A DNA stretch of 64,000 nucleotides from Opitutaceae bacterium (lineage in GTDB: Bacteria; Verrucomicrobiota; Verrucomicrobiia; Opitutales; Opitutaceae). Made by a program: the position numbers and the translations under genes. The notes under the pieces are model-generated. The model was not told the DNA's origin, did no database searches, and worked only from the letters and a program-made list of their open reading frames with translations. This document shows, piece after piece, positions 49,748 to 53,911 of this stretch (its first letter is position 1; each line of letters starts with the position of its first letter). The stretch covers positions 1 to 64,000 of the forward strand of contig JAGYIG010000006.1 of the NCBI GenBank assembly GCA_018402455.1, in the 5' to 3' direction.

Positions 49748-51346
49748 TCACCAGACCAGTAAGCCACCGGCATAAGTGAAGCCGGCACCGACGCTGCAGA
49801 AGATGATTTTGTCCCCGGCCTCAAAGATTTCCTCTTCGGCCGCCCAGCCGAGGGCCATCGAAACCGAAGCGCCGGAGGTGTTGCCGTATTTATCGATCGT
49901 GACGACAAAGCGGTCATAGGCGATGCCCACCCGCTTCGAGACCGCCCGCAGGATCCGCTCGTTGGCTTGGTGCGGCACGATCCAACCGATGTCATCGGGG
50001 GTCAGTTGGTGGCGTTGCATCGTCTTCTCGATCTCGTCGGCAAATGCTTTCACCGCGCTCTTGAACACCACCGGGCCGTTCACCTGCAGGTAGAAGTCAT
50101 CGACGTTCACATCTTCCGGCTTGGGCCAGGGTTTGTTGGCGCCGCCGCCCGGACGTTGGATGGCGGCAAATTTGCTCGCATCGCCCGAGAGGCCCATGCG
50201 GTGAAGACGATGCCCCCCGGGAGCATCGGTGAGGATCGCCGCACCGGCCCCGTCGCCAAACAGAAAGGCCGTCTCGTGATCTTTCGGGTTGGTGATGCGG
50301 GACAGCAACTCGGCCGTCACCACCAGCACCCGCTTCGGCCCGCCGCCCAGAATCAGCGAGCGGCCCACTTCAAGCGCATAGAGCCAGCCGGAACAGGCGG
50401 CATTGAGGTCGAACGCCAGCGCGGAATTGATCCCCAGTTTCTGCGCCAACGCGCTGGCCATGGCGGGAACCGGTTGATCGGGAATGAGGGTCGCCATGAT
50501 CACCCCATCAATACTGGCCAACTCCACGCCGGATTGCTCGAGGGCATGCTCGACCGCGGTGACCGCCAGATCCGTCGCGGTCTCACCCTCGCCGGCATAG
50601 CGCCGTTCGCGGATGCCGGTGAGCTTGATCATCTCCGCCTCGGTGCGGCCCGGGAACTCCTTGAGCACGTCCTTGGTGGAGCGAATGTTCTTGGGCACGG
50701 CAAAACCCACCCCGGCAATGCACACGGTTTGGTCGGTGGCCTTGACGGTGACTGCGGGGGTGACCGACGGCTCCGCCAGATCCCCCGCCCCGCGATTCGC
50801 CAAATACCGGGCCACGTCATCGCCCGAAATCCGACCGGCCGGTCCCGTCGCCGGGATGTCCGTGATCGTGTCCGGATCCAACCCCGCATCCCGAATCAGC
50901 TTCACGGCGCGCGGGGTCCATTTGGGGCCGGCGGAAAGGGCTGCCGGCGCAGCGGAGGCTGGCGCAACGGGATCAGCGGCGGCGGCGGCGGCGGCGGGTT
51001 TGGCTTCGATGGAAGGCGGAGTCGTTGACCCCGATTTTTCCTCGGGCGCCGCGCTCTTGGCCGCCAAATGCTTGAGCGACACGTCGTCGGTCGCGATCCG
51101 CATGAACGGGGAGCCCGAGGGCACGATGTCCCCCGCCCGCACGGCCAATGCCTCCAGCACCCCATCGCATGGGGCCTCGAACTCAAACACCGATTTGTCG
51201 CTCTCGAGTTCGGCAATTTTGTCGCCTTTGGCGAATGAGTCGCCCGGCGCCACCATCACATCGATGATGGTCAATTCGTTTACTGTCGCCCCCATCGAGG
51301 GGATCGGCACATCGATCAAAAAGGTCTGCGCAGTGGAGTCAGCCAT
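49748..51346 (-). CDS. Lipoyl domain + peripheral subunit-binding domain + 3-oxoacyl-ACP synthase III (FabH) fusion
   Basis: N: PIPSMGATVNELTIIDVMVAPGDSFAKGDKIAELESDKSVFEFEAPCDGVLEAL (lipoyl-type). Middle: KWTPRAVKLIRDAGLDPDTITDIPATGPAGRISGDDVARYLANR (PSBD) after an Ala/Pro linker. C: FabH with Cys (LNAACSGWLYAL), His (VPHQANERILRAV) and Asn (KYGNTSGASVSMAL). Confidence 0.92.
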   Translation of the reverse strand: MADSTAQTFLIDVPIPSMGATVNELTIIDVMVAPGDSFAKGDKIAELESDKSVFEFEAPCDGVLEALAVRAGDIVPSGSPFMRIATDDVSLKHLAAKSAAPEEKSGSTTPPSIEAKPAAAAAAADPVAPASAAPAALSAGPKWTPRAVKLIRDAGLDPDTITDIPATGPAGRISGDDVARYLANRGAGDLAEPSVTPAVTVKATDQTVCIAGVGFAVPKNIRSTKDVLKEFPGRTEAEMIKLTGIRERRYAGEGETATDLAVTAVEHALEQSGVELASIDGVIMATLIPDQPVPAMASALAQKLGINSALAFDLNAACSGWLYALEVGRSLILGGGPKRVLVVTAELLSRITNPKDHETAFLFGDGAGAAILTDAPGGHRLHRMGLSGDASKFAAIQRPGGGANKPWPKPEDVNVDDFYLQVNGPVVFKSAVKAFADEIEKTMQRHQLTPDDIGWIVPHQANERILRAVSKRVGIAYDRFVVTIDKYGNTSGASVSMALGWAAEEEIFEAGDKIIFCSVGAGFTYAGGLLVW

Positions 51347-51409: not shown

Positions 51410-52204
51410 TCAGCTGTTCACGACTCGCCAAACCGCCAAACAGCGTTCGATCAGTCCGGCCAACTCGCTGAGCGGCACCATGTTCGGTCCGTCGCTGATG
51501 GCTTGGGCCGGATCAGGATGGGTTTCCAAGAACAGGCCGTGGGCGCCCGCCGCCAGCGCCGCCTTGGCGAGAGGCTCGACAAACTCGCGTTGGCCACTGC
51601 TCCGGCCATCACCGGCGCCGGGCAACTGCACGCTGTGAGTCGCGTCGAGAATCGTTGGGAGCCCGTTGGCCGCCATGATCGGGAATGCCCGCATGTCGAC
51701 GACGAGATTTTGGTAGCCAAAGGTCGTGCCCCGCTCCGTCTGCCAGATTTCCCCCGCGCCGCCCTCGCGAATCTTGGCCACGACATGCTTCATGTCAGTC
51801 GGGGCGAGAAACTGTCCTTTCTTGACGTTGACGATCCGGCCAGTGACGGCCGCCGCCAGTAACAGGTCGGTCTGCCGACTCAGAAATGCCGGAATCTGCA
51901 GGACGTCACACACCGCCGCGACCGGCCCGCACTGCTCGGCGTGGTGGATGTCGGTCACGACCGGCAGGCCGAACTCCGATTTCACCATCGCCAGCAAGGC
52001 CAACCCCGCCTCGAGTCCCGTGCCCCGCGCCCCGGCGATGGAGGTCCGGTTGGCTTTGTCGAACGACCCTTTGAAGACGATGTTCAGGTCCGGATGCGAC
52101 CGCCCGAGCGTCACCAATTCAGTGGCCACCGCCCGGCAGACGTCGGCGTTTTCCAAGGAGCAGGGACCCGCCAGCAGCAGGAGTTTGGTCGGGTCGTGGA
52201 GCAT
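51410..52204 (-). CDS. kdsA: 3-deoxy-8-phosphooctulonate synthase
   Basis: [20 protein letters not shown]...[26 protein letters not shown]...[11 protein letters not shown]...[18 protein letters not shown]...[11 protein letters not shown]...[10 protein letters not shown]. Confidence 0.95.
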
Positions 52205-52207
52205 GAT

Positions 52208-53911
52208 TCAGGCGGTTTTGGGCGGAGCGGAAGCGGCCGGCTGCGCTGCGGCTTTCTTTTTGGTCTTCGGCTTGGGCTTGGGTTTGGGCTTCGGCATGGG
52301 CTTTGCGGCGGCCCCCTTGTGGTGCTTCATCGCCGCCTTGATGAAGGCGGCAAACAGCGGGTGTGCCGCATTCGGCTTCGACTGGAACTCCGGGTGGAAC
52401 TGCACCGCGACAAACCACGGATGGTTCTTGATTTCCACGATCTCCACCAGGTTGCGACGCGGGTTGATGCCACTGATCACCATGCCGCCCTTCTGCATCT
52501 TGGCGACGTAGGCGTTGTTGACTTCAAACCGGTGGCGGTGGCGCTCGCGGATGTTTTCGACCCCGTAGGCGCGCCGGGCTTTGGTGCCGGGTTGAAGGGC
52601 GCACTCATAACTGCCGACCCGCATGGTGGCCCCCTTGTCGATGATCTTTTTCTGCTCCTCCATCATGGTGATGACGGGCTCCTTGGCCTGGGGGTCAAAC
52701 TCCAGGGAGTTGGCCCCCTTCAACTTCAGCACGTTGCGGCAAAACTCAATCACCGCGATCTGCAGTCCCAGACAAAGGCCGTAATAAGGCACGCCGTTTT
52801 CCCGGGCGAAGCGCGCGGCGGCAATCTTGCCCTCCGTGCCGCGATCACCAAAACCGCCCGGCACAAGAATACCGTCCAGCCCCTGAAGCAGGTCGAGTCC
52901 GTGACGAGCCTCCAGTTCCTCCGCATCGATGCGGCGAAAATTGACCCGGCAATTGTTGGCAATCCCGGCATGGGTCACCGATTCGTAGACGGATTTGTAG
53001 GCATCCTGCAGTTCAATGTATTTGCCCACCACGCCAATGGTGACCTCGTGCCGGGGATTTTCGATGCGTTTGACGATGTTGTTCCAGAGGTTGTTCTCCG
53101 GCATCGGGCGCTTCAGGCCAAAGAGGTCCACCACCAATTCGTCCAAACCTTCGTTCTGCAGCGCGAGGGGCAGTTTGTAGATCGAGTCCACGTCGCGACA
53201 CTCCACCACCGCCTTCACCGGCACGTTGCAGAACATCGAAATCTTATCGCGCATGCCGTGGTCCATCGGATGCTCGCAACGGCATACCACGATATGAGGC
53301 TGAATCCCGATCTCGCGCAGCTTCGCCACCGATTGCTGAGTGGGCTTGGTCTTGAGCTCACCCGCCGCCCCCAGATAGGGCACGAGGGTCACGTGGATGA
53401 AGAGACAATCGCGGGGCCCCACCTCGAGCGCAAACTGCCGCATGGCCTCGAGAAACGGTAGGCCTTCAATATCTCCCGTGGTGCCGCCGATTTCCGTGAT
53501 CAACACATCAACATCCTTCGCGCCTTGGTAGATGCGTTCCTTGATCTCATTGGTCACATGCGGAATGACCTGCACCGTCTTGCCGAGATAAACACCACGG
53601 CGTTCGTTTTGAATCACACTCTCGTAAATCTGACCGGAGGACAGGCTGTTGAGCCGGGAGAGTTTGCCGCTGGTGAAGCGTTCATAGTGCCCGAGGTCCA
53701 GATCGGTTTCCGCCCCGTCTTCGAGCACGTAAACCTCCCCGTGCTGGAACGGGCTCATCGTGCCCGGATCGACGTTGAGGTAGGGGTCAAATTTCTGGAT
53801 GCGAACCTTCAGACCACGCACCTCCAGCAACGCGCCCAGCGCCGCCGCCGTCAGCCCCTTGCCCAAGGAAGAAACCACCCCACCAGTCACGAAAATATAT
53901 TTCATCGTCAC
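52208..53911 (-). CDS. pyrG: CTP synthase
   Basis: [77 protein letters not shown]...[41 protein letters not shown]; basic Pro/Lys/Ala C-terminal tail. Confidence 0.97.

Follow-up and report, generated by a model that had tools for sequence, protein, structure and literature searches.

A lipoyl-ketosynthase III fusion of Opitutaceae as a probable E2-like partner of a dedicated 2-oxoacid dehydrogenase E1

A 532-residue protein (P0001) encoded in the genome of an Opitutaceae bacterium (GenBank assembly GCA_018402455.1) probably serves as the E2-like partner of a dedicated E1 with fused alpha and beta parts, a ketosynthase III (KAS III) domain replacing the acyltransferase core, and would prime fatty acids via acyl-dihydrolipoyl, not acyl-CoA. 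In the textbook view, bacterial fatty-acid synthesis is initiated by FabH with acyl-CoA, and bacteria with branched chains use FabH to prime iso and anteiso fatty acids, the branched primers coming from a branched-chain dehydrogenase that releases acyl-CoA. With somewhat less confidence, we propose that P0001 and its E1 form a dehydrogenase complex with a ketosynthase as E2 core, which would couple the decarboxylation of a branched 2-oxoacid to chain initiation on malonyl-ACP, make NADH without ever releasing acyl-CoA, and be the main source of iso and anteiso primers in the organisms carrying it.

The gene lies at 49748..51346 of the window, i.e., the 64,000-nucleotide stretch of contig JAGYIG010000006.1 analyzed here, and was delimited from its open reading frame, Pfam matches and relatives. 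A preliminary description had found this frame without giving its strand; it is on the minus strand, as are all features located below, and read on the plus strand these positions contain stops. An AlphaFold2 model shows three confident domains (pLDDT mostly 85-98) with two disordered linkers between them. The lipoyl-type domain of the preliminary description corresponds to residues 12-84 (51095..51313), folded in the model and matched by Biotin_lipoyl with 55.9 bits (cut-off 22.1). Its modifiable lysine, Lys51 (51194..51196, motif ESDKS), is the same in all 40 relatives aligned, which span three phyla, and so are Cys318, His459 and Asn489 of the KAS domain; such invariance is not expected by chance. 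Identity as a biotin carrier was rejected, since the ESDKS/ESAKS motif is of the lipoyl type and not the MKM biotinylation motif. Nine residues past the lysine lies Cys60 (51167-51169, within EAPCDG), which at least 90% of the 40 relatives across the three phyla share. The Ala/Pro-rich linker that had been read from the sequence is disordered in the model (residues 99-138, 50933..51052, pLDDT < 50), and a second disordered linker covers residues 188-204 (50735..50785, pLDDT < 50). Between them, residues 144-178 (50813..50917) form a peripheral subunit-binding domain (PSBD) whose E3_binding score, at 26.0 bits against a cut-off of 23.7, is weak but real; it reaches 36.3 and 33.0 bits in relatives, and the PSBD of P0001 was also recovered by a genome-wide scan. 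The PSBD assigned earlier thus stands as a sequence match, whereas an essential role for it is not supported, the domain being absent in Fibrobacterota.

Residues 207-532 (49751..50728) constitute the KAS III (FabH-like) domain, according to Pfam (ACP_syn_III at 312-375, ACP_syn_III_C at 443-532), NCBIfam, AlphaFold2 and superposition. In NCBIfam, NF006829 scores 301.6 bits, above its cut-off of 249, and TIGR00747 (fabH) 272.6 bits, below its cut-off of 292.1. This part superposes on FabH of E. coli, Neisseria and Yersinia with TM-scores of 0.93-0.96 on the target. Pfam finds in P0001 neither a carrier-protein domain nor the PF00198 (2-oxoacid_dh) acyltransferase core, in keeping with the initial view that a FabH-like domain has replaced that core. 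For residue comparisons, 35 ordinary FabH and 60 lipoyl-KAS sequences were aligned and numbered on E. coli FabH. The catalytic triad claimed from the outset, Cys318 (50393..50395; E. coli Cys112), His459 (49970..49972; His244) and Asn489 (49880..49882; Asn274), is kept in all ordinary FabH and all 60 lipoyl-KAS, together with the ACP-docking arginine Arg249.

The site that receives CoA presents a different picture. Three FabH residues contact the adenine, Thr28 and Trp32 by holding it and Arg151 by stacking on it; a fourth, Arg36, binds the phosphopantetheine portion (PMC4606726). All four are kept in 35/35 ordinary FabH; among the lipoyl-KAS, Trp32 and Arg36 occur in 0/60 and Thr28 in 1/60, and in P0001 the Thr28, Trp32 and Arg36 positions (residues 234-242, 50621..50647) are Arg234, Glu238 and Leu242. 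The position of Arg151 is His, Phe or Tyr in Opitutaceae lipoyl-KAS, and Arg (13) or Lys (11) in most of the 26 Fibrobacterota and Sumerlaeia rows; that of Phe304 is Val in 60/60 lipoyl-KAS. Judged from the alignment, the CoA-adenine site of FabH is lost in the whole lipoyl-KAS family. This would be expected if acyl-CoA were no longer the donor, and an acyl-ACP donor would fit as well.

Relatives were collected by a pattern scan over one genome per GTDB species, yielding 72 loci, and the spread of the architecture, proposed earlier as a check, proved considerable. Full-length fusions (lipoyl-PSBD-KAS III, 59-86% identity) occur throughout Opitutaceae and Pelagicoccus, the isolates P. mobilis and Ereboglobus PH5-10 among them, and are limited to the Opitutaceae family in a phylum sample of 291 Verrucomicrobiota genomes. 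Shorter relatives with lipoyl and KAS III domains only (37-40% identity) are found in Fibrobacterota, where 27/151 genomes carry a lipoyl-KAS, and in one Sumerlaeia genome. In a contig labelled Candidatus Sumerlaeota (L017), a pyrG-kdsA-lipoyl-KAS locus typical of Opitutaceae (63% identity) is present, probably through a binning error. Full-length lipoyl-KAS genes occur twice in one genome of the Opitutaceae family (G331:C34:20494-22083 and C66:12443-13978). In the KAS tree, whose outgroup sits on a very long branch that makes the root unsafe, so that only the unrooted split is used, lipoyl-KAS forms a clade (SH-aLRT 97) that excludes the ordinary FabH found in the same genomes. Adjacent but separate genes encode lipoyl-PSBD and KAS III in one clade of Opitutaceae; as this clade (SH-aLRT 99) nests among fused forms, the arrangement looks derived and apparently goes back to one event in which an ancestral fusion came apart. 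In seven genomes the E1 and a lipoyl-PSBD protein are retained with no such KAS at the locus, where tblastn found no KAS partner, and the six FabH genes from KAS-less genomes included in the residue alignment are all ordinary; the arm may therefore have another acceptor there. In these loci (L132-L138, from G014, G059, G032, G029, G031, G037 and G049) pyrG and kdsA are followed by a stand-alone lipoyl-PSBD protein of about 150-205 residues, and in L136 the contig stops just past its gene.

The identity of the partner E1 emerges most directly from Fibrobacterota. A fused alpha-beta E1 (E1_dh, Transket_pyr, Transketolase_C) directly precedes the lipoyl-KAS gene there, its end falling at -4 to +33 bp relative to the start of lipoyl-KAS in all 26 testable loci, namely those with sequence upstream of lipoyl-KAS; no other upstream gene was found to be common to the Fibrobacterota loci at the level of the E1. 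The Sumerlaeia locus (n=1) has the same arrangement. Among 61 Opitutaceae-family genomes, an orthologous fused E1 accompanies one or more parts of the lipoyl-KAS system in 57, and four have neither (Fisher p 1.9e-6 for the co-occurrence of E1 and lipoyl-KAS, species kinship being ignored). Orthologs of this E1 (55-100% identity) are confined to the Opitutaceae family in the 291-genome sample, the next best match reaching 40%.

In Opitutaceae the two genes are mostly far apart, the E1 in a kdsC-lptA-lptB cluster and the fusion next to pyrG-kdsA. The P0001 gene follows, on the same strand, pyrG (CTP synthase, 52208..53911) and kdsA (51410..52204, directly upstream), both conserved neighbors in Opitutaceae, and converges on an oligopeptidase-like gene; all three neighbors were named from sequence and synteny rather than by a family scan. 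The E1 gene of the source genome, an assembly of 100 contigs and 91% completeness, is truncated by a contig end: at locus L085 (G000:C43:1-12000) the contig start cuts an orphan E1-beta, after which come kdsC-, lptA-, lptB-, HprK- and HflX-like genes (names from sequence). Elsewhere in Opitutaceae the E1 is whole (about 690 residues); in 29/29 testable loci kdsC lies downstream of it on the same strand, within 150 bp in 27 of them. Each half of the Opitutaceae system consequently has a Kdo gene beside it, kdsC for the E1 and kdsA for lipoyl-KAS.

The preliminary description had advised looking for E1 genes lacking an E2 and for a second stand-alone fabH, and both were found. The source genome holds a single E2 core (PF00198), that of pyruvate dehydrogenase (PDH), and two PSBDs, those of PDH E2 and P0001. 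Two E2 cores are present in most of the 61 Opitutaceae-family genomes, and neighboring genes identify them as SucB and PDH E2 in Pelagicoccus mobilis, DG1235, Ereboglobus PH5-10 and Ca. Synoicihabitans; a SucB locus was also read in two further genomes (G019 and G054). We considered whether a second chromosomal E2 nearby might serve the orphan E1 and rejected this, because that E2, wherever it was checked, proved to be SucB, accompanied by SucA and/or Lpd. Since the typed cores are PDH E2 and SucB, the fused E1 is left without a classical E2. Within the limits of MAG completeness, an E2 core is missing from a Fibrobacter-type genome (G335) that has E1 and lipoyl-KAS, and a Chitinispirillaceae genome (G337) shows only a marginal E2-core match. 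Opitutaceae also possess a full PDH and an ordinary stand-alone FabH, and a lipoyl/octanoyl ligase is present in 11/11 genomes checked.

A different architecture, a single-chain E1-E2 fusion of about 1050 residues, is present in 13 of the 61 genomes. It shares a 2-oxoacid E1 and a lipoyl domain with the present system and, unlike lipoyl-KAS, keeps the PF00198 core. Two examples, L143:1775-4927 and L144:3806-7036 (1050 and 1076 residues), comprise E1_dh, Transket_pyr, Transketolase_C, Biotin_lipoyl and 2-oxoacid_dh, and the gene in L143 adjoins a 3-hydroxyacyl-CoA dehydrogenase gene. The single-chain form is commoner in genomes without lipoyl-KAS (9/11) than in those with it (4/50), with Fisher p values of 2.0e-6 and, at genus level, 5e-4, kinship not being fully controlled; the pattern fits a replacement of lipoyl-KAS by a CoA-releasing route.

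In the mechanism that we propose, the E1 would use thiamine diphosphate to decarboxylate a 2-oxoacid, most likely a branched one from valine, leucine or isoleucine, and would reductively acylate the lipoyl group that we infer on Lys51. The arm would hand this acyl group over to Cys318 in the KAS domain of the same protein, and that domain would condense it with malonyl-ACP to 3-oxoacyl-ACP, the first intermediate of iso and anteiso fatty acids. The common E3 (Lpd) of the cell, docked by the PSBD where one is present, would reoxidize the dihydrolipoyl group with NAD+, and free acyl-CoA would not be needed. Such channeling from E1 through the lipoyl arm to the KAS cysteine was the central idea of the preliminary description, and it gains support because its predictions held: an E1 without its own E2, a second, stand-alone FabH, co-occurrence of E1 and lipoyl-KAS, and the E1 and lipoyl-KAS operon of Fibrobacterota. 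The loss of the CoA-adenine site, which had not been foreseen, points in the same direction.

The 2-oxoacid is probably branched, as suggested by membrane fatty acids and by weak similarities of the E1. Horticoccus contains 34.9% iso-C15:0 and 29.0% anteiso-C15:0, Oleiharenicola 28.4% anteiso-C15:0 and 17.1% iso-C15:0, and Rariglobus, a MAG of which carries the fusion (L028), 31.1% anteiso-C15:0 (PMC12193912). With only PDH and SucB as E2, no other source of branched primers is evident among the E2-dependent dehydrogenases of such genomes. Branched fatty acids also occur in Coraliomargarita, outside the fusion-carrying family, and in Lacunisphaera limnophila (48.6% iso-C15:0), whose putative genome (G320) has neither the E1 nor lipoyl-KAS, so the lipoyl-KAS system is not the sole route to them. 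In one Fibrobacter-type locus (L072:227-1246), a branched-chain aminotransferase (NCBIfam ilvE_II, 360 bits) lies two genes upstream of the E1; it is absent from all other loci inspected and is therefore not taken as proof of a branched substrate.

Alternatively, the same complex may act on pyruvate or another straight 2-oxoacid, acetyl-dihydrolipoyl priming straight-chain fatty acids, which we regard as unlikely. Taken as a whole, the E1 shows roughly the same similarity to PDH as to branched-chain E1 structures. Its beta part has Geobacillus PDH as best solved match (162.8 and 211.4 bits), and PDH E1 models come first in NCBIfam, though all below their cut-offs; these results favor pyruvate, whereas the alpha part scores higher against branched-chain E1 (Thermus 127.7 and human BCKDH 119.3 bits) than against PDH (102.7 bits). 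Acetyl priming would moreover be redundant in Opitutaceae, given their own PDH and ordinary FabH, and the Val or Ile that Opitutaceae lipoyl-KAS have at the position of E. coli Phe87 would suit a larger primer, although this position varies in ordinary FabH too.

Whatever the acyl group, the KAS III domain could be a plain acyltransferase, moving it from lipoyl to ACP or CoA without condensation. The domain does occupy the place of the E2 acyltransferase core, and in other pathways E1/lipoyl units have been proposed to prime carrier proteins without CoA (PMC5384830), but the Cys-His-Asn triad of decarboxylative condensation is complete and does not vary (60/60), and the lost adenine site speaks against CoA as the acceptor, making this reading quite improbable. 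Slightly less credit still is given to the lipoyl and PSBD domains being a scaffold that tethers a separate KAS III working with acyl-ACP, or even still with acyl-CoA: the altered adenine site would suit acyl-ACP, and the seven genomes have the lipoyl-PSBD protein without KAS, but the invariant lipoyl lysine and the tight E1 operon of Fibrobacterota would be left unexplained. A fusion accident or assembly artefact lacking any functional link, for which the fragmented source assembly and its cut E1 might be invoked, can be dismissed, as dozens of independent genomes across three phyla, among them isolates and assemblies of a single contig, contain full-length relatives.

Returning to condensation from a lipoyl arm, P0001 resembles the E2 of 2-oxoacid dehydrogenases (PDH, OGDH, branched-chain) in its N-terminal lipoyl domain, Ala/Pro linker, PSBD and partner E1 gene, and differs from them in having KAS III instead of the PF00198 core and, in the Fibrobacterota forms, in lacking the PSBD. 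With FabH/KAS III of E. coli, S. aureus and B. subtilis (FabHA/FabHB) it shares the fold, the triad and Arg249; unlike them it has its own lipoyl arm, has lost the CoA-adenine residues and belongs to a separate clade. Its E1 is a single chain with the three domains of other alpha-beta-fused E1, yet it has no matching E2 core in the typed genomes and is paired with lipoyl-KAS III. On these sequence features P0001 likely works like an E2 without acyltransferase core, its KAS III recognizable by fold and triad and devoid of the CoA-adenine site. The nearest parallels come from secondary metabolism. For the pepteridine E2-NRPS fusion, an E1 and a lipoyl unit are proposed to load a carrier protein directly, with no CoA (PMC5384830); the naphthyridinomycin glycolicacyl unit (Peng et al. 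2012) and a case of branched-chain priming (Craig and Brady 2011), taken here from their citation in that paper, are further units proposed to act in this way. In these units, too, a 2-oxoacid E1 and a lipoyl arm would feed biosynthesis and not CoA (PMC5384830), but the acceptor is a carrier protein of secondary metabolism, whereas P0001 joins the arm to the very enzyme that condenses. In the open-licence PMC literature, to which our search was confined, no lipoyl-KAS III fusion and no lipoyl arm on a condensing enzyme initiating fatty acids was found described. If our reading is true, lipoyl-bound acyl groups would join acyl-CoA and acyl-ACP as a third way into fatty-acid synthesis, and lipoyl-KAS would provide a ready-made part for CoA-free engineering of branched lipids.
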